Positions 43,661 to 54,057 of a stretch of DNA of 64,000 bases are shown in pieces. Origin of the DNA: Hyphomicrobiales bacterium (GTDB lineage Bacteria; Pseudomonadota; Alphaproteobacteria; Rhizobiales; Beijerinckiaceae); NCBI GenBank assembly GCA_900470095.1, contig UBZM01000002.1, positions 1 to 64,000 on the forward strand, in the 5' to 3' direction. The notes below the pieces were generated by a model. That model was not told the origin of the DNA, searched no databases, and was given only the letters and a program-made list of their open reading frames with translations. The translations under genes and the position numbers were made by a program. How positions within the stretch are numbered: the stretch's first letter is position 1; every line of letters starts with the position of its first letter.

Positions 43661-44416
43661 TCAGCCCTGCAGGATAGCGTAGACATCGCCAGAGTTGGCC
43701 GAATGCGGCAAATCACGCAGGTAGCCGCCCATTGCTTCGGCGCTGGCCTCCTCGGAGAGTTCGAGGAACTGGCTTTCACCGAGTGCAACGTTGAAGCGGT
43801 ATGGCCCCATCGTCTCGAGCAGTGCGAGGCAGCCCTCAGCGACATCGCGCTGGATCGTGGTGAACTCGAACGAGATCACCGGCACCCGCCGCGAGAGCCC
43901 GGCAAGGACATTGGCCTCAAAGCCTTCAACATCGATCTTGATGAAGGCGGGCTCGCCATAGCGCGAAATCAGAGCGTCGAGCGTCGTGCAAGGCACCGTG
44001 ATCTCGCGATCCCAGACCTGGTCGGCCCAGCCCTCGGCGCCGTGGGCGGCACCGACGAATTGCTCGGAGACGGTCGAGACGGTCGGATTCGCACTGTTGA
44101 TCCTGAGCCTCACGGTGCCGGCCCGATCGCCGCAGGCGGCCTGCACCAGGGTGACATTCGGATCCCGCCCGTGAATGAGGCGAATCGCACGCGCCGGACC
44201 GGGTTGCGGCTCCAGCGCAACAACCCGCGCACCGAGCCGGCGGAAAGAGGAAATCCGGTCGCCGACATGGGCTCCGATATCGAAGGCGAGATCGCCGGGC
44301 TTCAGGAAGCCTGCATAGAGCGCATCCATTGCCGCGTGGCGTCCACGATCGCGATGATAGACCCTGAGCGAGCGTGCAATCGCCTTGGCCGTACCCTTGG
44401 GATAGGCCACGCCCAT
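43661..44416 (-). CDS. FkbM-family methyltransferase
   Basis: A 251-residue SAM-dependent methyltransferase. The SAM-binding motif is LAFDIGAHVGDRISSFRRLG (about 48-67), followed by VVALEPQPG. FIKIDVEGFEANVLAGL is the FkbM signature. FkbM enzymes O-methylate sugars or polyketides. It overlaps the OpgH stop by one base (TGATG), so the two are probably translated together. This suggests a methylation of the glucan made by OpgH, which is inference. The frame stays open far upstream but is antisense-like there. Confidence 0.9.
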   Translation of the reverse strand: MGVAYPKGTAKAIARSLRVYHRDRGRHAAMDALYAGFLKPGDLAFDIGAHVGDRISSFRRLGARVVALEPQPGPARAIRLIHGRDPNVTLVQAACGDRAGTVRLRINSANPTVSTVSEQFVGAAHGAEGWADQVWDREITVPCTTLDALISRYGEPAFIKIDVEGFEANVLAGLSRRVPVISFEFTTIQRDVAEGCLALLETMGPYRFNVALGESQFLELSEEASAEAMGGYLRDLPHSANSGDVYAILQG

Positions 44417-46275
44417 CACGCGCGCGTCTCCGCCTGGATGTTGGCCTGGATGTTGGCCTGGATGGCGGCGAGTTCGGCCGGAGGATCGAAATCCTCGGGG
44501 ATACCGCAGAGGCCGCGGGCGACGAACCATTCCCCCAACGCCGGTGCAGCGGTCAGCATCGCAAAGGGAATTGCCAGGACATAGCCGGCGGTCAATGGCA
44601 GCGACCAGAGCAGCACCGTCGGCGACAGGATGGCGAGCGAACCGAAGATATAGAGCCCAAAAAGCAGATGCGGCCACAAACCTGCGAATGCCGTCGCAAA
44701 AGACAACGCGTGCGCGTCGCGCGATTGGCCGTTCCAGCCGATCTTCGCTCGCCCGAAGGCAAGGTTGATCATGAACAGCGTCGTGCGGAAGGTCGAAACC
44801 GCTCCCTGCAGGAAGGCAAAGACGATCTCGATCAGCGACGAGGCGATGAAGCGGCCCGTGCCGCCGTAACGCTTCGTGCCTCCCCCGGTCAGCAGGATAT
44901 CGGCAAAGCCCGCCAGCTTGGGCGAGAGGTACATCGTGAAGAACAGCACGTAGAGGAAAGTCGCGAGCCCCGCCGGGTATCCGGCGATATTGCCATCCTC
45001 GATCACCTTCCAGGGCAGCAGCGCGATCATCAGCGTCCAGGCCGGCAGGCCGAGGAACATCAGGATCGCCCAGACGAGCTGGAAGCGGCTCATCGGCTTC
45101 AGGCCCGGCAGATCGAGCAGCTTGAGATATTGCAGATTGCCGAGGCACCAGCGCAGATCGCGCTTGGCGAATTCGAGCATGGTCGGAGGGTTCTCCTCCC
45201 AGCTCCCCATCTCCTCCGGCAAGACGCGCACCTCGTAGCCGGCGCGGCGCATCAGGGTCGCCTCGACCTGGTCATGGCTCATCATCGGGCCGCCCAGCGG
45301 CGGTCCGCCGGGGAGCACGGGCAAATGGCATTCATCGCGGAAGGGCGCGATCCGCACCACGGCATTGTGCCCCCAGAATGGCCCGCACTCGCCAATCCAC
45401 CAGGCCGAGCCCATCGTGTAGGGGCGCATGCCGTGACGCATGCCGAACTGGAAGATCCGCGCGAAGGCCGACCTGCTCGGCATGCCGACAACAAGGCTCT
45501 GCAGGATGCCGAGCCGCGGATGGGCCTGCATCATACGGGTCAGCCTGACGATCGCCTCGCCCGACATCACGCTGTCGGCGTCGAGCGGCAGCATGAGTTC
45601 GTAACGATCACCCCAGCGCTCGCAAAATTCACGAACATTGCCTGCCTTGAAGCCGGCATTATCGGTCCGGCGGCGATAGGTCACCCGGCCGCTCTCGCCG
45701 AGCTCGCTCGCCCACCCCGCGGCGAGCGCCTCCTCCGCAGCGGCGACACGAGGATCATTGCTGTCGGAGAGTACGAAGTAGTCGTACCAGCCGCCCTGCC
45801 CTGTCGCGTCAAGGCTTTGCTTGACCACGCGCAGACGACGGAAGGCCCGCGTGGGATCCTCGTTGCGAAGGGTCATCAAGACTGCGGTGCGAACGGCCAG
45901 CGGTGTCGCGACATCGCCGTCAGCGGCAAACGGCGCAACCTGTTCGCGCCCGTCCTCGACGCCATGCAGCAGCCAGAGCCCGATTGCAGCATTCCAGAAG
46001 CCGAGCACGGTCCAGGGCGCACCGAACAGGAAGGCCACGAAGATCACGATATCGGCAAGGGTCCAGCCGCCTGCGCCCAGCACCCGCGACAGCCCGAAGA
46101 GAAGGCCCGCAAGCGTGACGAGGTTAAGCACGAGAACCAGCAGCCGGCGGGCCCGCAACACGCCGATCGTCTGCAGCCCGGCGGGAGTCAGCCCCGGCAG
46201 CATATCGCCTGCCTCTTGCGCCGCCGGCTGGAACGTGGTCGGAGCGGGGCGCTGATTCATGGCGGGTTCCGTCAT
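44416..46275 (-). CDS. opgH: OpgH-type glucan beta-glucosyltransferase
   Basis: A 619-residue inner-membrane GT2 processive glycosyltransferase that makes the backbone of osmoregulated periplasmic glucans from UDP-glucose. Two membrane helices (about 42-85) precede the catalytic domain with SDSNDP, LPLDADSVMSG (DxD type), MSHDQVEATLMRRAGY and KRDLRWCLGN (the R/QxxRW motif). Several helices follow. It is shorter than the 847-residue E. coli OpgH, close to alphaproteobacterial forms. The C-terminus contains a 4-residue tandem repeat (QANIQANIQA) coded by 12-base DNA repeats. opgG is not adjacent. ATG at 46275 is used; 46260 is possible. Confidence 0.88.
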   Translation of the reverse strand: MTEPAMNQRPAPTTFQPAAQEAGDMLPGLTPAGLQTIGVLRARRLLVLVLNLVTLAGLLFGLSRVLGAGGWTLADIVIFVAFLFGAPWTVLGFWNAAIGLWLLHGVEDGREQVAPFAADGDVATPLAVRTAVLMTLRNEDPTRAFRRLRVVKQSLDATGQGGWYDYFVLSDSNDPRVAAAEEALAAGWASELGESGRVTYRRRTDNAGFKAGNVREFCERWGDRYELMLPLDADSVMSGEAIVRLTRMMQAHPRLGILQSLVVGMPSRSAFARIFQFGMRHGMRPYTMGSAWWIGECGPFWGHNAVVRIAPFRDECHLPVLPGGPPLGGPMMSHDQVEATLMRRAGYEVRVLPEEMGSWEENPPTMLEFAKRDLRWCLGNLQYLKLLDLPGLKPMSRFQLVWAILMFLGLPAWTLMIALLPWKVIEDGNIAGYPAGLATFLYVLFFTMYLSPKLAGFADILLTGGGTKRYGGTGRFIASSLIEIVFAFLQGAVSTFRTTLFMINLAFGRAKIGWNGQSRDAHALSFATAFAGLWPHLLFGLYIFGSLAILSPTVLLWSLPLTAGYVLAIPFAMLTAAPALGEWFVARGLCGIPEDFDPPAELAAIQANIQANIQAETRA

Positions 46276-46305
46276 GCGATGGTGCAAGGCGAGGGTCTGC
46301 TCAAC

Positions 46306-47313
46306 ATGGCGCAGGAGCTAAAGCCGGCATTCTCAGCCGGCGCAAGTTCGACGGCAACGGCCCTCTGGTATGTGGCGCCGCGTGAATGCGTCCTGAACAC
46401 CGTCAAGGTGCCTCCCGCTGGACCGGGCGATTGCCTGGTTCGCATGCTCTGGAGCGGCATCAGCCGCGGCACCGAGCGCCTGGTTTTCGAGGGACGCGTG
46501 CCGCCGTCCGAGCACGAGCGGATGCGCGCGCCCTTCCAGGAGGGGGCGTTCCCGTTCCCGGTCAAATACGGCTATTGCGCCGTCGGGCAGGTCGAAGCCG
46601 GGCCGGCCGACATCATTGGCAAGACGGTGTTTTGCCTCCATCCGCATCAGAGCCGCTTCGTGGCGCCGCGCGAACGGATGACGGTCGTGCCCGATGCCGT
46701 TCCTGCTCGCCGCGCGGTGCTCGCCGCCAATATGGAAACCGCGCTGAACGCGCATTGGGATGCTGCATCCGGTCCCGGTGACCGCATTGTCGTCGTCGGT
46801 GGCGGCGTGCTCGGCCTGCTGGTCGCCTGGATTGCGGCACGGATGCCCGGTGCGGATGTGACGCTTGTCGATATCGACCCCGGCCGTGCTGCTCTGGCAG
46901 GACAGCTCGGCTTCGGTTTCGCACGGCCCGACGCCGCCCCTGAGAACGCCGATGTCGTCTTCCATGCCAGCGCCTCGGCGCCAGGCCTTGCCACGGCGAT
47001 AGCAGCGGCCGGTTTCGAGGCCCGCATCGTCGAGCTGAGCTGGTATGGCGAGGGCGCTGTGCCCGCCCCGCTCGGCGGCGCCTTCCATTCCAAGCGATTG
47101 CAGATCGTCTCCTCGCAGGTTGGGCAGGTCTCACCCTCGCGCCGTTCCCGATGGGACTACGCCAGGCGCGCCCAGGCCGCGATGGCCCTCCTCGCCGACG
47201 AACGGCTGGACGGGCTGATCACGCAGGACATCCGCTTCACCGACGCTCCGGCGCAGCTTCCCGGCGTGCTGTCCGCCGATTGGCGCGGGCTGACCGCAGT
47301 GCTGCGCTATTGA
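46306..47313 (+). CDS. Medium-chain dehydrogenase/reductase without zinc ligands (BchC-like)
   Basis: A 335-residue MDR-fold protein. The N-terminal part has SGISRGTERLVFEG, where zinc enzymes have a Cys, so the catalytic zinc site is absent. The Rossmann motif is VVVGGGVLGLLVAWIAARMPG with VDIDPGR after it, suggesting NAD(H). This pattern resembles BchC-like dehydrogenases. ATG at 46306 follows GAGGG; an in-frame ATG at 46279 is possible. It heads a plus-strand unit with the PTPS-like, GT4 and methyltransferase genes and diverges from opgH across only 30 bases. The substrate is unknown. Confidence 0.85.
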   Translation: MAQELKPAFSAGASSTATALWYVAPRECVLNTVKVPPAGPGDCLVRMLWSGISRGTERLVFEGRVPPSEHERMRAPFQEGAFPFPVKYGYCAVGQVEAGPADIIGKTVFCLHPHQSRFVAPRERMTVVPDAVPARRAVLAANMETALNAHWDAASGPGDRIVVVGGGVLGLLVAWIAARMPGADVTLVDIDPGRAALAGQLGFGFARPDAAPENADVVFHASASAPGLATAIAAAGFEARIVELSWYGEGAVPAPLGGAFHSKRLQIVSSQVGQVSPSRRSRWDYARRAQAAMALLADERLDGLITQDIRFTDAPAQLPGVLSADWRGLTAVLRY

Positions 47314-47375
47314 CCTGACACGGGCGGCTTGGCCAAGACAGAGGCCTGCCGACGCGCCCGCCCAAGGAGTTGCAC

Positions 47376-47777
47376 ATGTTTTCCGTCGAAGTCCGCGACC
47401 GCATCATGATCGGCCACTCGCTGCCCGATCCATTCTTCGGCCCGGCGCAGAACATGCACGGCGCGACCTTCGTGGTCGATGTCGCCTTCTTCCGCGAGCG
47501 GCTCACGCGCCAGAATGTCGTGGTCGATATCGGCGCCGCACTCGACGTCCTGAACAAGACCCTGAAGCCGCTGAACTATCAAAACCTCGATACGCTGCCG
47601 CAGTTTTCCGGCGTGCTCACCACCACCGAGTTCCTCTGCAAATATATTTTCGACGCGATCGCTGGAGCCGCAAAGTCGGGGGCCCTTGGCGAGGACGGCG
47701 CCGGGTTGTCCCGCATCCGCGTCACCCTGCATGAGACCGACCTCGCCCGCGCCAGCTATGAGGGCGCCCTCGCGTGA
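47376..47777 (+). CDS. PTPS/QueD-fold protein with catalytic residues lost
   Basis: A 133-residue T-fold protein of the 6-pyruvoyl-tetrahydropterin synthase family. Two zinc-ligand positions keep His (His14 in IGHS and His28 in MHGA), but the third His is Ala30, the catalytic Cys position is Ala24, and the Asp-His pair reads Asn-Tyr in LNYQNLD. The substrate-anchoring Glu remains (LHETDLARASYEG). It is thus unlikely to do normal PTPS or QueD chemistry. AAGGAG lies 6 bases before the ATG. It overlaps the GT4 start by 4 bases. Annotation as 6-carboxytetrahydropterin synthase would be misleading. Confidence 0.85.
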   Translation: MFSVEVRDRIMIGHSLPDPFFGPAQNMHGATFVVDVAFFRERLTRQNVVVDIGAALDVLNKTLKPLNYQNLDTLPQFSGVLTTTEFLCKYIFDAIAGAAKSGALGEDGAGLSRIRVTLHETDLARASYEGALA

Positions 47778-48826
47778 GCGAGATCGTCTTCGCGATCCCT
47801 GGCGAGATAGACCTACCTACGGGCGGCTATGGCTATGATCGCCGCCTGCTGCGGGAGTGGCGCGCCAATGGCGTTGCAGCGCGGCACCTCGCCCTGGCCG
47901 GTTCCTTTCCAAACCCGACGCCGACGGATCTCGACGAGACCCACCGGCTGCTCCTGTCACAGCCCTCCGGTCACGTCCTGCTGATCGACGGATTGGCCTA
48001 TGGTGCCCTTCCGGAGAGCATCGCGGCCGACCTGGCCGGCCGGGTGGTTGCACTGGTGCACCACCCCCTCGGCCTCGAAACCGGACTTGAAACGGAGCAG
48101 GCCCGCGCCTTGATTGCGCACGAAACCGCCGCCCTGCGTTATGCCAGCGCCATCATCGTCACCAGTCCGGCGACCAAGCGCCTTCTGGTCTCCGATTTCG
48201 GAGTCCCCGCCGGGCGCATCGCGGTTGCCCAGCCCGGCGTCGACCGGGCCCCGCGTGCTGCCGGTGGCCGCCCGGACGAGCCGCTGCAACTGCTCGCGGT
48301 CGGGTCCCTCGTCCCGCGCAAGGGCTACGACATCCTGGTCGAGGCATTGCGCCCGCTGCGGGGCTTGTCCTGGCGGCTCCAGATCATCGGCGCAGCCGAC
48401 CGGGCGCCCGCGACAACTCTCGCGCTCAAGGCACAGATCGCGTCTTCGGGGCTTCAGGACCGGATCACGCTGGCGGGCACCGTTGGCGAAGCTGAGCTGG
48501 CACAGGCTTACGACAAGGCCGACCTCTTCGTCATGCCCTCCCTCTTCGAGGGATATGGCATGGTGCTGACCGAAGCGATGGCGCGAGGCCTGCCGATCCT
48601 GTGCACCACCGGGGGCGCAGCAGCCGAAACAGTGCCGGATGCCGCCGCCATTAAGGTTGTTCCCGGCGATGCCGGCGCATTGACCCGGGCATTGGGCGAG
48701 CTTCTGGCTGAACCCGCTGGCCGAAAGCGCCTGGCCGATGCCTCCTGGGCCGCGGCAGGGACATTGCCTCGCTGGCAAGACACCGCGACGATCGTCGCCG
48801 AGACCTGCCGAAAGGTGTTTGCATGA
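47774..48826 (+). CDS. Family 4 glycosyltransferase
   Basis: A 350-residue GT-B glycosyltransferase. The N-terminal domain has the Gly-rich acceptor loop PTGGYGYDRRLL. The C-terminal domain has VGSLVPRKGYDILVEAL and the donor-site E-x7-E motif in SLFEGYGMVLTEA. It starts at GTG (47774), overlapping the PTPS-like stop by 4 bases, and overlaps the methyltransferase start by 4 bases. No membrane helices, so it is a soluble or peripheral enzyme. The acceptor could be the small molecule handled by its neighbours rather than a polysaccharide; that is inference from context. Confidence 0.88.
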   Translation: MSEIVFAIPGEIDLPTGGYGYDRRLLREWRANGVAARHLALAGSFPNPTPTDLDETHRLLLSQPSGHVLLIDGLAYGALPESIAADLAGRVVALVHHPLGLETGLETEQARALIAHETAALRYASAIIVTSPATKRLLVSDFGVPAGRIAVAQPGVDRAPRAAGGRPDEPLQLLAVGSLVPRKGYDILVEALRPLRGLSWRLQIIGAADRAPATTLALKAQIASSGLQDRITLAGTVGEAELAQAYDKADLFVMPSLFEGYGMVLTEAMARGLPILCTTGGAAAETVPDAAAIKVVPGDAGALTRALGELLAEPAGRKRLADASWAAAGTLPRWQDTATIVAETCRKVFA

Positions 48827-49662
48827 GCGGCTTTTCCCCAGACTGGCTGGCTCTGCGCGAGCCGGCCGATCACGCAGCGCGCAACCCGCAATTGCTCGCA
48901 GCCGTTGGCGCCCATTTCTCCAGCCGCCCATCACTCACCATCGTCGATCTCGGCTGTGGCGCGGGCTCCAATCTACGCGGCACCTATTCCGCGCTCCCCG
49001 CTCGACAGCACTGGACGCTCGTCGATTTCGATGAGCGCCTGCTTGGCGTCGCTCGTGAACGCCTCGCGGCCTGGGCCGATGAGGTGCGCGAGCAGGGTGA
49101 GGAACTCGTCCTGCGCAAGGGAGGCAAGACGATCACCGTCGATACCCGCAAGGCGGACCTGAACAAGGATCTCGAATGGGTCCTTGGCTGGCAGCCCGAT
49201 CTGATGACCGCGGCGGCCCTGTTCGACCTCACGTCGAAGCGCTGGCTCGAACGCTTCGTCGCCGCGCTCGTCAGCCAGAACGTCCCGCTTTACACGGTGC
49301 TGACCTATGACGGTCGCGAACAATGGCAGCCGAAACATGGCGCCGACGCCAGGGTCCTTGCAGCCTTTCACCATCATCAGCACAGCGACAAGGGCTTTGG
49401 CCCAGCTGCTGGACCAGACGCCACGGAGGCGATGGCCGAGGCCTTCCGCAAATCCGGATTCGCGGTTTCCACCGCCGAAAGTCCATGGTTGATCGACGAA
49501 AGCCAGCGCGAACTGGCGGAGGCCCTGACGAAGGGCATCGCCGAGGCGGTGACCGAAACCGGCCATCTCGACCCCGCCACGGTCGCAGACTGGCTGGAGG
49601 CCAAGCGCGCGGTCATCTCCGGGCTCGTCGGACACCAGGACCTCTGGGCCCGGCCTGTCTGA
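48823..49662 (+). CDS. SAM-dependent methyltransferase
   Basis: A 279-residue class I methyltransferase. The SAM-binding motif is IVDLGCGAGSNLRGTY (about 44-59), with the acidic strand end LVDFDERLL. An insertion (about 88-120) carries KGGKTITVDTRKADLNKDLEW, and later DLMTAAALFDLTSKRWLERF is motif II/III-like. It is the last gene of the four-gene unit and overlaps the glycosyltransferase by 4 bases. The target is unknown. The minus-strand cytochrome b561 gene follows, convergent, 10 bases away. Confidence 0.87.
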   Translation: MSGFSPDWLALREPADHAARNPQLLAAVGAHFSSRPSLTIVDLGCGAGSNLRGTYSALPARQHWTLVDFDERLLGVARERLAAWADEVREQGEELVLRKGGKTITVDTRKADLNKDLEWVLGWQPDLMTAAALFDLTSKRWLERFVAALVSQNVPLYTVLTYDGREQWQPKHGADARVLAAFHHHQHSDKGFGPAAGPDATEAMAEAFRKSGFAVSTAESPWLIDESQRELAEALTKGIAEAVTETGHLDPATVADWLEAKRAVISGLVGHQDLWARPV

Positions 49663-49672
49663 ATTAGGTCGG

Positions 49673-50254
49673 CTAGCGCGCTCCGGGCCACATCCGCCGC
49701 AGCACGCCATCCCTGCGGATAAAGCGGTGATAGATCACCGCGGCGATATGCGCTGCGATCAGCAGGGCCATGCCGAGCGCCAGCCAGCCGTGGATATTGA
49801 GCACCCTCTTTGCCATATCTTCGTTCGGCGCAGCGAGTGCCGGCAGATCGAACAGATCGAAGATCGTCAATGCTGGAAAGAGCGACACGCCGATCCAGCC
49901 CAGAATCGGCACGATGAGCAGCAGGCCATAGAGCAACCAATGCACCAGATGCGAACCAGCCTTGTGCCACCACAGCAGGGTCGGCTCGTCGGGCGGAGCG
50001 CCATGCAGCAGGCGATAGAGCAATCGCCCGGCCATCAGCCAGAGCAGCGTGAAGCCAATCAGCTTATGCGCGCTGTAGAGCGAGTTGGTCAGTGTATCCC
50101 AGATATCGAGCGTTTTTCCGCGATAGGTCATCGCCAGGCCAAGCGGGATCATCACGAGGACGAGCGCGACGATCAGCCAGTGGAAACCCCGCGCGACCGG
50201 GCTGTAGACTGCTGCCATGCCCGATTTGGCCGCCTTGGCGTCGTGACTGATCAC
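49673..50254 (-). CDS. Cytochrome b561 family protein
   Basis: A 193-residue four-helix membrane dihaem cytochrome. Helices lie near 25-45, 65-84, 105-126 and 160-182. Haem-ligand His are seen in ARGFHWLIV, SAHKLIGF, HLVHWLLY and NIHGWLALG/AAHIAAVIYH. Such proteins move electrons between quinones and periplasmic acceptors, often against superoxide. Start choice: the GTG at 50254 follows GGGAG at a normal distance; an in-frame start at 50305 and an ATG at 50218 are alternatives. It is inserted, in opposite orientation, between the four-gene unit and ribA. Confidence 0.85.
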   Translation of the reverse strand: MISHDAKAAKSGMAAVYSPVARGFHWLIVALVLVMIPLGLAMTYRGKTLDIWDTLTNSLYSAHKLIGFTLLWLMAGRLLYRLLHGAPPDEPTLLWWHKAGSHLVHWLLYGLLLIVPILGWIGVSLFPALTIFDLFDLPALAAPNEDMAKRVLNIHGWLALGMALLIAAHIAAVIYHRFIRRDGVLRRMWPGAR

Positions 50255-50396
50255 CCTGCTCTCCCATGGCTTCCTGTGATTGGGTATGCCGCTACCTTCG
50301 CCCATTCATCTCGCGTTCAATCTCACCTTCCTATACAGCTGGCGGCAACAGATTGGATGGCTGCTAAGTTCAGCCGACGTGAGGGTTTTGGCAACG

Positions 50397-50421
50397 GGAA
50401 CCGTCAGCCCCCGGGAACGTT
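50397..50421 (+). promoter_or_regulatory. EcfG-type general stress promoter upstream of ribA
   Basis: The sequence is GGAAC, 16 bases, then CGTT, an exact match to the alphaproteobacterial sigma-EcfG consensus (GGAAC-N16/17-CGTT). It lies 95 bases upstream of the ribA-type ATG with no gene between. This would place ribA under PhyR-NepR-EcfG general stress control; that reading is inference from the motif. Confidence 0.5.
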
Positions 50422-50516
50422 TCGAAACCGGGGTCAGTCGCGCATCCCTAGCGATTTCCTGAACGTAGAATAAACATTCCTCCGCCGCTCGCCGGTGCAA
50501 TCTGACGGACAGTTCG

Positions 50517-51659
50517 ATGCTCAAGTCGCCGATGTCTCGGTCGCGTACGCTCTTCGGCCGCTCGCAAGAAACCAACCTCGTGACGGTCGATCGTGCGATC
50601 GCCGAATTCCGCGCCGCCCGACCGGTGCTCTTGCGCGATGGTGTCAGCCTGGCTCTGGCACTCTCCGCGGAGCTCGCGGACGCTGATCTGGTTCATCGGC
50701 TCGACGAGCTTGCCCGTGGCCGGGCACATCTCATTCTCAGCGCAGCGCGTTTGCGCAGGCTGGGAGCCAAGGGCCGCAGCGAGACCGGCATCCTGGCAAT
50801 GCCGACGCTCGATCTTGCCCGTATCGAAACACTTGCCCTGAAGATCGACGCCAAGGTCGATGCGCCCGTTGCGCCCGCCGGCTTGCTTGACGAAGCCGCG
50901 CTCGAACTCGCCAGGCTTTCGCTGGTTCTGCCGGCGACGATCCTTGTCCCGGTCGCTGCCGACGAGATCGCCGGCGAGCCGCTCGTCGAAGTCGCCATTG
51001 AAGCGATCAACGCCTATCGGGGCGAGCAGGTCGCATCGCTGGCGATCGTCGGTCGGGCGCCTGTGCCGCTGGAAGGCGCGCCGGAAACCGAATTCGTCGT
51101 CTTCCGCGGCGGCGAGGGCCTGCGCGATCAGGTTGCGATCATCGTCGGCAAGCCGGATCTCGGTACCGCCGTGCCCGTGCGCCTGCATTCGGCCTGCCTG
51201 ACGGGCGATCTCTTCGGTTCGCTGAAATGCGACTGCGGCGACCAGCTGCGCGAGACCGTGCAGTGGATGGCAGAGAACGAGGGTGGCATTCTGCTCTATC
51301 TGGACCAGGAAGGCCGCGGCAACGGCATCTCCAACAAGATGCGTGCCTACCGGCTGCAGAGTCAGGGCTGGGATACCTATGACGCAGACGAAGTGCTCGG
51401 CTTCGACCTCGACCAGCGCCATTTCGATTTTGCCGCCACCATGCTGAAACAGCTTGGGGTGACAAGCGTCACCGCCTTGACCAACAACCCGCTCAAGATC
51501 GGCGCGATCAAGGCTGCCGGGCTCGAGGTCGCCGCAACCCAGCGCGTGCTCGGCCGGCCAAACGTTCACAATGTCCGCTATCTCGCCTCCAAACGGGACC
51601 GCGCCGGCCATTTCATCGACATGGACGCGCTGATGGCTCGCGCCGCCCCGACGGATTGA
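50517..51659 (+). CDS. ribA: GTP cyclohydrolase II with N-terminal extension
   Basis: Opens the GTP imidazole ring to give the first riboflavin intermediate, or a formamidopyrimidine for another pathway. The 380-residue protein is nearly twice the core length. The C-terminal 185 residues hold the zinc site (HSACLTGDLFGSLKCDCG), the catalytic LDQEGRGNGISNKMRAY and NNPLKIGAI. The N-terminal 180 residues (AIAEFRAARPVLLRDG) look like a decayed dihydroxybutanone-phosphate synthase domain. No other rib gene is in the window. Its closeness to the PTPS-like/GT4/methyltransferase unit and the EcfG-like promoter suggest a specialised role, not proven. Confidence 0.88.
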   Translation: MLKSPMSRSRTLFGRSQETNLVTVDRAIAEFRAARPVLLRDGVSLALALSAELADADLVHRLDELARGRAHLILSAARLRRLGAKGRSETGILAMPTLDLARIETLALKIDAKVDAPVAPAGLLDEAALELARLSLVLPATILVPVAADEIAGEPLVEVAIEAINAYRGEQVASLAIVGRAPVPLEGAPETEFVVFRGGEGLRDQVAIIVGKPDLGTAVPVRLHSACLTGDLFGSLKCDCGDQLRETVQWMAENEGGILLYLDQEGRGNGISNKMRAYRLQSQGWDTYDADEVLGFDLDQRHFDFAATMLKQLGVTSVTALTNNPLKIGAIKAAGLEVAATQRVLGRPNVHNVRYLASKRDRAGHFIDMDALMARAAPTD

Positions 51660-51690: not shown

Positions 51691-54057
51691 ATGTCCGAGC
51701 CCGGCACCATTCCCCCTCCGGTTCCCTCGACACGCTGGCCGCTCGCCAGCGTGTTCTGTATTGTGTTCTGCGCCTGGTTGGCCCTGTCCTGGCCGTGGCT
51801 CTCCGGAATCGTCACCATTCCCTGGGACGCGAAGGCCCATTTTCACCCACAGCTGCAATTCCTGGCGACGGCGCTGAACCGGGGTCTCTCTCCGTTCTGG
51901 ACGCCCTATGTTTTTGCCGGATCGCCGCAGGTCGCCGACCCGCAATCCCTGATCTTCTCACCGCCTTTCGCCCTGATCGCGATCTTCAATTCGGCGCCGA
52001 GCTTTCGCTGGAGCGACGGCGCCGTGCTCGGCACCTTGCTGGCGGGCGCCCTCGCCCTTGTGCTGCTGTTTCGCGATCGCAACTGGCATCCTGCCGGCGC
52101 CGTCATTGCAGCTCTCGCCTTCGCCTTCGGCGCCTCTGCAGCCTGGCGCATCCAGCATATCGGGCAGGTGCTCAGTCTCGGCTACTTCGCCATAACGCTA
52201 TTGCTGCTGTCGCGTGCGCTTGAACGCAGCTCGCCGATCTACGGCTTGGCAGCGGGCATCGTGGCCGGCTTCATGGTGCTTGGCCGCGACCAGGTCGCAT
52301 TGATCGGCGTCTATGTCCTGGCCGGACTGGTGATCGCCGCCATTGCCATGGCCGACAAGCCACTGCGGGCCTTGCGCGCAAGCATCCTCCCGCTCCTCGC
52401 CGGATCGCTCGGCGCCGTCCTCGTCGCGACCGTTCCGATCCTGCTCACCGCCTTCCTGGCACAGGAATCGAACCGCCCCGCCATCGACCTGATCGGGGCC
52501 GGAAAGGGTTCGCTGCACCCTGCATCCCTGCTCACCGGGCTGATTGCCAATCTCTATGGCGCGGCAGGGCCGCTCGAGAACTTCTGGGGGCCGCCGAGCC
52601 CCGCCTGGGAACAGCGGTTCGGGCCGCTCGATCTCTATCTCGCCCGAAACATGGGCGAGCTCTATCTCGGCTTCCTGCCGATGCTGCTGATCCTGACAGT
52701 CGGACTGGTGCGCGGCGCGCTGCTGCGGCGCGAGATCATAGCGCTTACCATCGCCGCACTGCTGGTGCTGGTCTACGCGCTCGGTCGCTACACACCCGGT
52801 TTCCGGCTGATCTTCGAGGTGCTGCCGGGCGTGAGTTTCTACCGGCGGCCGGCCGACGCGCTCTTCATCCTGGGGGCGCTGCTCGCGATCCTCGGCGGCT
52901 ACCTGACCCATCTCGTCATGACCGACACCGCGCCACGTGCGAGGCTTTGGCAAGTGCTCGTCGAGGCAGCCCTTCTGGTCGGCGCCGTTGGGCTCGCCCT
53001 CTGGCTCGCCTGGACCGTCGGGCGTGTCGGTGTGGCGACGATCCCGCTCGTCACTGCGCTGCTCTGCGCCCTCTTGAGCGCGGGCGCACTGGTTGCGGCG
53101 CGCGGGCTCTCACTGAGAGGCTCGACGCTTGCGGCCACTGCCTTGCTGGCAGCAACGCTGACGGTGGATCTCTCCGTCAATAACGGCCCGAGCGAATCCA
53201 CCGCCCTGCCCTCGCAGAATTATGACGTCTTGCGCGCCGACAGCACGAACGAGACCATTGCCCTGCTCAAACGCGAGACGGCCCGCACCGCCGCGCCGGA
53301 CCGCCGCGACCGCATCGAGCTCGCGGGCATCGATTTCCACTGGCCCAACGCCAGTCTCGTCCATCAACTCGACAATACGCTCGGCTACAATCCCCTCAGG
53401 CTCGGTCTCTACAGCAAGGCCACGGGCGCGGGCGACCATGTCGCCTTGCCGGACCAACGCACGTTCTCGCCACTGATGCCGGGTTACCGCTCGCTGCTCG
53501 CCGACATGCTCGGCCTGCGCTTCATCGCGACCGGCGTCCCCGTCGAACAGATCGACAAGACTCTGAAGCCCGGCGACCTCGTTCAGGTCGCCAGGACGCG
53601 CGATGCCTATGTCTACGAGAACCCGCGCGCCTTGCCCCGTGTCCTGCTTGTCGAGAAGGCCGAGCGGGCCGATTTCGACGCGATCCTGGCAAGCGGCCAA
53701 TGGCCAGCAGGCTTCGACCCGCGAACCTCGGTCCTGTTGGAGCGGGCCCCGCCGCCCCTGCCCGCCGGGCCCGCTCAGCCCGGCTCGGTCCGCATCGTCG
53801 ATTACGGCACCACCGACGTCGTTCTCGAGGCGGATGCTCCGAGCGGCGGCTATGTCGTGCTCAATGATGTCTGGCACCACTGGTGGCAGGTCGAAGTCGA
53901 CGGCAAGCCAGCTCAGTTGCTTCGCGCCAATGTCCTGTTCCGAGCGGTCGCTGTGCCGCCTGGCCGATCGAAGATCCGCTTCGTCTTCCGCCCCTTCGAG
54001 GGGCTTTACGCCGATATCGGAGCCTGGCTGAAGACGCGGCGGGCGCGTCCGGTCTGA
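51691..54057 (+). CDS. YfhO-like multi-spanning membrane protein
   Basis: A 788-residue protein. The first 500 residues contain about 12-14 hydrophobic helices, with loop motifs WDAKAHFHPQL and NMGELYLGFLPML like those of GT-C-type and YfhO proteins. The last 280 residues form a soluble beta-rich domain, probably periplasmic (VLNDVWHHWWQVEVDGKPA). YfhO in Bacillus takes part in lipoteichoic acid glycosylation; a GT-C glycosyltransferase role here is inference. It starts 31 bases after ribA, which suggests cotranscription, and ends 7 bases before the convergent HAD gene. Confidence 0.82.
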   Translation: MSEPGTIPPPVPSTRWPLASVFCIVFCAWLALSWPWLSGIVTIPWDAKAHFHPQLQFLATALNRGLSPFWTPYVFAGSPQVADPQSLIFSPPFALIAIFNSAPSFRWSDGAVLGTLLAGALALVLLFRDRNWHPAGAVIAALAFAFGASAAWRIQHIGQVLSLGYFAITLLLLSRALERSSPIYGLAAGIVAGFMVLGRDQVALIGVYVLAGLVIAAIAMADKPLRALRASILPLLAGSLGAVLVATVPILLTAFLAQESNRPAIDLIGAGKGSLHPASLLTGLIANLYGAAGPLENFWGPPSPAWEQRFGPLDLYLARNMGELYLGFLPMLLILTVGLVRGALLRREIIALTIAALLVLVYALGRYTPGFRLIFEVLPGVSFYRRPADALFILGALLAILGGYLTHLVMTDTAPRARLWQVLVEAALLVGAVGLALWLAWTVGRVGVATIPLVTALLCALLSAGALVAARGLSLRGSTLAATALLAATLTVDLSVNNGPSESTALPSQNYDVLRADSTNETIALLKRETARTAAPDRRDRIELAGIDFHWPNASLVHQLDNTLGYNPLRLGLYSKATGAGDHVALPDQRTFSPLMPGYRSLLADMLGLRFIATGVPVEQIDKTLKPGDLVQVARTRDAYVYENPRALPRVLLVEKAERADFDAILASGQWPAGFDPRTSVLLERAPPPLPAGPAQPGSVRIVDYGTTDVVLEADAPSGGYVVLNDVWHHWWQVEVDGKPAQLLRANVLFRAVAVPPGRSKIRFVFRPFEGLYADIGAWLKTRRARPV

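Follow-up and report, generated by a model that had tools for sequence, protein, structure and literature searches.

A recurrent gene set around a PTPS-fold protein without the PTPS catalytic residues, and its possible role in making a GTP-derived glycoside

Analysis of a 64,000-nucleotide stretch from a Hyphomicrobiales bacterium (GenBank assembly GCA_900470095.1, contig UBZM01000002.1, positions 1 to 64,000; hereafter the window) identified four adjacent genes, encoding a dehydrogenase of the medium-chain dehydrogenase/reductase (MDR) superfamily, a protein with the fold of 6-pyruvoyltetrahydropterin synthase (PTPS), a family 4 glycosyltransferase (GT4) and a methyltransferase (MT). These genes form a genuine unit whose recurrence exceeds chance, since the core is found in most related stretches, across two phyla, and is nearly absent from control windows; its neighbours are often genes of riboflavin type and sometimes genes for membrane lipids. 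On balance, we favour the reading that it belongs to a dedicated set, largely apart from riboflavin synthesis, that would convert guanosine triphosphate (GTP) into a pterin-like compound, glycosylated, methylated and likely bound to the membrane. The best named matches of the window's proteins are to Bosea, which points to a Bosea-like alphaproteobacterium; the assembly totals 7.17 Mb.

All four core genes lie on the plus strand. The MDR gene (46306..47313; BchC-like, 335 amino acids from its ATG within a longer open frame) is followed by the genes for the PTPS-fold protein (47370..47777; Pfam PTPS, E 1.7e-20), the GT4 (47774..48826; Pfam Glycos_transf_1, 1.5e-28) and the MT, a class I S-adenosylmethionine-dependent enzyme (48823..49662; Methyltransf_25, 2.2e-5, under the Pfam cut-off). 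In the open-frame list the PTPS and GT4 genes overlap by 4 bases, as do the GT4 and MT genes. A ribA gene (50517..51659, plus strand) begins 854 bases after the end of the MT gene and encodes GTP cyclohydrolase II (GTP_cyclohydro2, 4.2e-46) with an additional N-terminal part of ~190 amino acids. Open frames and domain matches thus confirm the layout given in an earlier note on this DNA, namely four plus-strand genes with 4-base overlaps and ribA 0.85 kb further on.

That note had also taken the four genes to be one unit, which co-occurrence and locus counts bear out. Across the 289 genomes of this class whose proteins were searched (limit 1e-3), the PTPS subfamily was present in 36, and exactly those 36 carried the MDR (limit 1e-30; the best ~7 candidates per genome were scored). 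Within these 289 genomes the MT was confined to those with the set, namely 33 of the 36 PTPS-positive ones, with no match among the other 253 (limit 1e-6). A phylum-wide draw of 398 genomes returned the PTPS subfamily in 27 at 1e-15, with a weakest E of 1.1e-56; 11 of these were outside the class, and the complete four-gene core was present at all six of the loci taken from those 11 matches. A scan of named genomes, which may have species in common with the class set, found at least 586 places encoding a PTPS relative; among the best 80 (the named loci), an MT gene lay near the PTPS gene in 76, an MDR gene in 72 and a GT4 gene in 71. When loci of at least 14 kb were considered (109 out of 127 fetched), all four core genes were present in 91, three in 14, two in 1 and one in 3.

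For comparison with genomic background, we set 41 cluster loci, 35 from the class and 6 from outside it, against 40 windows of 20 kb at hand-picked positions in set-carrying genomes. MDR, PTPS and MT matched none of the control windows and GT4 matched one, compared with 39 of 41 cluster loci for GT4. Because the queries for these family searches derive from cluster loci, some of which (L044 and L058) are also in the counts, they favour the cluster loci, and the Fisher tests applied to the counts take no account of relatedness.

Gene order differs by lineage. GT4 lies upstream of ribA in some Rhodobacterales loci (L114, L157), while in four loci of Polynucleobacter or Alcaligenaceae type (L113, L120, L124, L131) the MT gene is found on the opposite strand, 5 kb upstream. 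Because the set survives such rearrangement, there has probably been selection to keep the core together. Similar sets are found on annotated plasmids of Streptomyces fungicidicus, Microbacterium, Agrobacterium, Peteryoungia and the gammaproteobacterium Thiodictyon, and two small genomes (1.4 and 1.6 Mb) hold a compact version comprising creatininase, MDR, PTPS, GT4, MT, RibD_C and RibA genes with no intervening gene. Two records carry labels that may not fit their content. One, titled Aquiluna sp. metagenome-assembled genome (L138), has an actinobacterial label, a gene order like that of some Rhodobacterales and 58% identity to the query, pointing to transfer or mis-binning; the other, titled Bordetella parapertussis metagenome-assembled genome (L131), has the order of L113 and L124, and its species label looks doubtful.

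The PTPS-fold protein appears to have lost PTPS chemistry while retaining the residue that would anchor a pterin. It has the T-fold with PTPS topology and scores 73.6 bits against Pfam PTPS and 30.9 bits against the QueD model (cut-off 89). Every one of the 36 aligned rows has HGA in place of the HGH zinc motif, Ala at the catalytic Cys position, and Tyr, Phe or Leu where the Asp-His pair would have its His, with the Asp kept in 5; the earlier description of a catalytically dead fold agrees with this. Glu87 and Glu122 are kept in every row, and the latter corresponds to the pterin-anchoring Glu. Most plasmid records that name this gene call it 6-carboxytetrahydropterin synthase, an annotation contradicted by the loss of the catalytic residues. 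The nearest solved relative, a connection that the earlier note did not make, is SCO6650 of Streptomyces coelicolor (PDB 3d7j, 55% identity), and the window protein belongs to its subfamily (207 bits to the SCO6650-family profile, with shared motifs). SCO6650 was reportedly described in a 2008 paper as lacking zinc and the catalytic triad, and as of unknown function. A second, different context for this fold is found on two Streptomyces plasmids (L152:3974-12473 and L159:6791-17742), where an SCO6650-type gene has no MDR, GT4, MT or ribA gene nearby and both times lies near genes for a MEKHLA-domain protein, a cupin, an MBL-fold protein, a sigma-70 factor and a BTAD regulator.

The remaining core proteins are recognizable at the family level. 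The MDR matches ADH_zinc_N under the Pfam cut-off (7.1e-6) and BchC with 53 bits (cut-off 291). The earlier label "zinc-less" fits it, as none of 35 relatives has the four-Cys lobe and one of the 35 contains the string GHE, by string search rather than structure. The GT4 resembles exopolysaccharide (EPS) glycosyltransferases in a curated-model match; a Pfam GT4-conflict match (58 bits) was set aside in favour of general GT4 models (100 bits). Fold comparison of the MT gave, among the matches listed, only general small-molecule methyltransferases.

Outside the core, ribA is the partner that bears most directly on the starting material. The window RibA scores 491 bits against PRK08815, above the cut-off of 464, and keeps the three zinc Cys, the Tyr and the Arg when read against an E. 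coli anchor sequence. A ribA gene was present at 15 of the 41 cluster loci (14 above 80 bits) and in none of the control windows; the 15, and the RibA tree, include one ordinary ribBA 8.8 kb away with 55 bits (L061). The neighbourhood comparison proposed earlier therefore shows homologues that are not scattered and ribA as a true partner. With ribA as the partner of a true four-gene unit, a GTP-derived glycoside is a fair guess, for which the modified pterin, flavin-like and deazapurine glycosides offered earlier are candidate classes. On the RibA tree the window protein falls in an eight-member clade made up solely of cluster copies (support 0.98). The two Streptomyces cluster RibAs have Met in place of the catalytic Tyr, a substitution that is a feature of the formyl-product-forming SCO6655 of S. 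coelicolor. The window genome holds a third, distant GTP_cyclohydro2 match (G000:C49:8490-8933; a frame of 444 amino acids, 62 bits) besides the cluster ribA and the C117 copy.

Among the partners predicted to act after GTP opening, the most frequent is a stand-alone RibD-type reductase, present at 32 of the 41 cluster loci and in none of the control windows. All four of those scanned match RibD_C only and have no deaminase domain, and when one was compared with solved structures the best matches were 2,5-diamino-6-ribosylamino-pyrimidinone phosphate reductases (6p8c, 2azn). These reductases are largely distinct from the riboflavin enzymes of the same genomes. Ordinary RibD is found elsewhere in most of 20 set-carrying genomes, 19 of which have at least two PF00925 genes; on a tree, the 15 canonical RibD copies included make up a clade with support 1.0 to which no cluster copy belongs, and 33 of the 35 cluster copies group together (0.73). 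These observations suggest that the core set is largely separate from riboflavin synthesis. A creatininase-family gene was found at 9 of the 41 loci and in no control window, and three out-of-class loci (L204, L206, L209) have both it and ribA. An inositol-monophosphatase-family gene lies inside a Rhodobacterales form of the set (L157:5171-5974) and in 8 of the 80 named loci, and is a candidate phosphatase for ribityl phosphate; in the control comparison, the IMPase and PfkB families were found at none of the 41 cluster loci and in none of the 40 control windows.

A second group of partners points toward the membrane. A CDP-alcohol (cytidine diphosphate-alcohol) phosphatidyltransferase gene is present at 18 of the 41 cluster loci, 12 of them among the 35 from the class, in none of the control windows and in 11 of the 80 named loci. 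At all six out-of-class loci it lies ~2 kb upstream of the PTPS gene and a flippase gene follows the MT gene; these six account for every flippase match in the comparison (6/41 against 0/40). Three of three CDP-alcohol enzymes scanned matched Pfam above the cut-off, and the motif DxxDGxxAR...GxxxDxxxD was read in two. In the window itself, a gene for an OpgH/MdoH-like membrane glucosyltransferase (44416..46287, minus strand; curated model match, 930 bits) is divergent from the MDR gene and linked to the set, although the earlier note had left it out. OpgH genes occur at 9 of 41 cluster loci against 0 of 40 control windows, and in 51 of the 80 named loci. In the 109 longer loci, OpgH and CDP-alcohol genes were found together once (L121), OpgH alone 50 times, the CDP-alcohol gene alone 26 times and neither in 32; a later out-of-class locus (L204) is a second case with both. 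A cluster OpgH need not mean a periplasmic glucan, because OpgG is missing from 7 of the 9 genomes with a cluster OpgH, being present in the window genome (three copies) and G182. The earlier note did not mention the RibD-type reductase, creatininase, CDP-alcohol enzyme or flippase, as all four are absent from the window.

Other neighbours may be accessory to the set. The cytochrome b561 gene between MT and ribA (49673..50305, minus strand; Pfam Ni_hydr_CYTB, 2.3e-27), which may be a redox partner or unrelated, as considered earlier, often recurs near the core (41 of 80 named loci; 8/41 cluster loci against 0/40). A probable accessory gene encodes an FkbM-type methyltransferase (43661..44560, minus strand; domain-model matches and locus counts), with relatives in 27 of the 80 named loci, 8 of 41 cluster loci and 1 of 40 control windows. 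One protein cluster from the grouping of neighbours combined FkbM with CDP-alcohol genes and was left out of the analysis. A YfhO-like multi-spanning membrane protein encoded directly 3' of ribA (51691..54057, plus strand; Pfam match under the cut-off) is a possible accessory (14 of 80 named loci; 2/41 against 0/40, not significant). Sulfatase-type genes were found at 6 of 41 cluster loci and in no control window. At two loci (L155:3205-4791 and L161:2472-4115) a sulfatase-annotated gene adjoins the flippase gene, the L161 protein having no Pfam match at 0.001, and 14 of 16 loci with such a gene also carry the CDP-alcohol gene.

Gene content, conservation, co-occurrence, residue losses and the separate riboflavin genes in most genomes checked are the observations on which we base a pathway, in which every reaction, the reaction order and the membrane destination are predictions from sequence. 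Cluster RibA would open the GTP ring to give 2,5-diamino-6-ribosylamino-pyrimidinone 5'-phosphate; in the two Streptomyces loci, the Met-for-Tyr enzyme would not proceed beyond the formylated product, from which the adjoining creatininase-family hydrolase would then remove the formyl group. The stand-alone reductase would turn the ribosyl into a ribityl chain, and the 2-amino group would stay on the ring because this reductase lacks a deaminase domain. In Bosea, where the cluster-type reductase is missing, ordinary RibD could substitute or the reduction could be skipped. The PTPS-fold protein, acting without zinc chemistry, may hold the 2-amino-pyrimidinone through its conserved Glu and help to build or alter a second ring. 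The MDR would adjust the redox state, the GT4 add a sugar and the MT cap the compound. Its linkage to the membrane would fall to a CDP-alcohol phosphatidyltransferase, which is often accompanied by a flippase, and in other lineages to an OpgH-like enzyme. In a more specific form, which we offer tentatively and give a minor chance of being correct, the product is a membrane lipid with a GTP-derived, pterin-like glycoside head group, joined to diacylglycerol through a phosphodiester by the CDP-alcohol enzyme and translocated by the flippase, with the OpgH-like protein as substitute in Bosea, other Hyphomicrobiales and relatives.

Several observations weigh against this pathway or parts of it. 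With respect to its first step, no more than 15 of 41 and 34 of 80 loci have a ribA inside the fetched flank, and the RibAs of the cluster do not form a single clade: distal copies are mixed into a second group (support 0.974), and the two Streptomyces proteins stand apart. Since those distal copies come from genomes without a local ribA and also from some with one (G216, G015), the second group may have another role. The window has no match to the CDP-alcohol, flippase, creatininase or cluster-reductase queries; in its genome, only ordinary RibD matches and no cluster-type reductase were found, and the cluster reductase was likewise not found in seven related loci (L071-L077; six Bosea, one Boseaceae). 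Under midpoint rooting of the RibD tree, the two cluster reductases from actinobacteria (L153, L162) fall with the canonical copies (0.928). In G161, a 1.6 Mb genome with a separate GTP cyclohydrolase II, the cluster reductase is the only RibD_C gene and may therefore also serve riboflavin synthesis. Creatininase is found in 2 of 80 named loci, and the one Streptomyces protein scanned scored below cut-off for every model considered (MftE 141 bits, creatininase 100, ArfB 37 with a cut-off of 180). Of six loci examined with both RibA and creatininase, four keep the Tyr in RibA; the idea that a Met-for-Tyr RibA dictates the need for creatininase holds in the two Streptomyces loci, fails in these four, and was rejected. 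The flippase is absent from all 35 class loci and present in 8 of 80 named loci, and the GT4 and MT matches name no substrate.

A different explanation is a second or backup route in which the ribA and reductase of the cluster supply ordinary riboflavin synthesis and the core genes serve only to decorate flavins. RibA and RibD_C are riboflavin families, the sole RibD_C match of G161 is its cluster copy, and a published study reports an unexpected riboflavin step in Rhizobiales (PMC9478397). We consider this explanation unlikely, as no ribB, ribH or ribE is named near the set in 10 annotated plasmid loci (8 with MDR beside PTPS; the gene table is incomplete), ordinary copies exist elsewhere in most of the 20 genomes with canonical RibD separate on the tree, the four scanned cluster reductases have no deaminase domain, and no FMN (flavin mononucleotide) riboswitch was found at the gathering threshold in 7 loci. 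The set could instead be a surface-glycan locus, in which OpgH, GT4, FkbM and YfhO make a periplasmic glucan or polysaccharide and ribA and PTPS are incidental. The abundance of OpgH and FkbM in the named loci, the EPS-like GT4 and the three OpgG genes of the window genome are what one would expect of such a locus. This too is quite unlikely: most genomes with a cluster OpgH lack OpgG, its usual partner, PTPS and MDR occur in an identical set of 36 genomes, neither OpgH nor FkbM accompanies the set in the two small genomes, and OpgH and the CDP-alcohol enzyme are rarely together.

A third explanation would make the PTPS gene a QueD in a branch of queuosine or other 7-deazapurine synthesis, in line with the name given in most plasmid records and the weak QueD match. 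It is very improbable, and we rejected it given the residues needed for QueD chemistry, lost in all 36 rows, and the named neighbours, which include no QueE, QueC or QueF near the set in 10 annotated plasmid loci; the window genome also carries another PTPS-family gene at a separate place. A role in defence was also rejected (of six proteins run through PADLOC, the methyltransferase alone gave a match, a weak one to Mad2, and the GT4-conflict match was outscored as noted above), as was carriage by phage, for which 7 stretches matched the pattern in viral contigs and none was confirmed.

If the lipid form of the proposed pathway is true, Proteobacteria and Actinobacteria would have in common a class of redox-active or light-absorbing lipids. 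The set of up to ~10 genes spans both phyla, chromosomes and plasmids, and its retention in two genomes of 1.4-1.6 Mb would mean that the product is important enough to preserve. We found no description of the set and no assigned product in the literature, a weak negative because open-licence papers alone were covered.

Among known systems, SCO6655 differs from the window RibA, which keeps the Tyr and has an extra N-terminal part; the one paper found to name SCO6655 places it under riboflavin metabolism in a metabolic model (PMC2853524). Set beside stand-alone diaminopyrimidine reductases, the cluster copies are mostly separate from the canonical clade (33 of 35), which the two actinobacterial copies adjoin. 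Creatininase-family formamidases (BrbF/ArfB) act on the formylated intermediate in Sinorhizobium and Brucella, according to the study cited above (PMC9478397); cluster loci likewise place a creatininase-family gene next to a GTP-opening enzyme, with a weak ArfB match, but this gene is missing from most loci and from the window. The window GT4 shares its family with UDP-glucose:tetrahydrobiopterin glucosyltransferase (5zer; weak match, E 2.5e-5), a likeness that says little because many other GT4 enzymes match better. The SCO6650 structure is deposited as that of an uncharacterised protein and was compared here through its PDB name and a sequence alignment; no account of the wider gene set was found. 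The core set supplies candidate partners for this solved, unexplained structure, and what a PTPS fold does without PTPS chemistry becomes a testable question in culturable strains.

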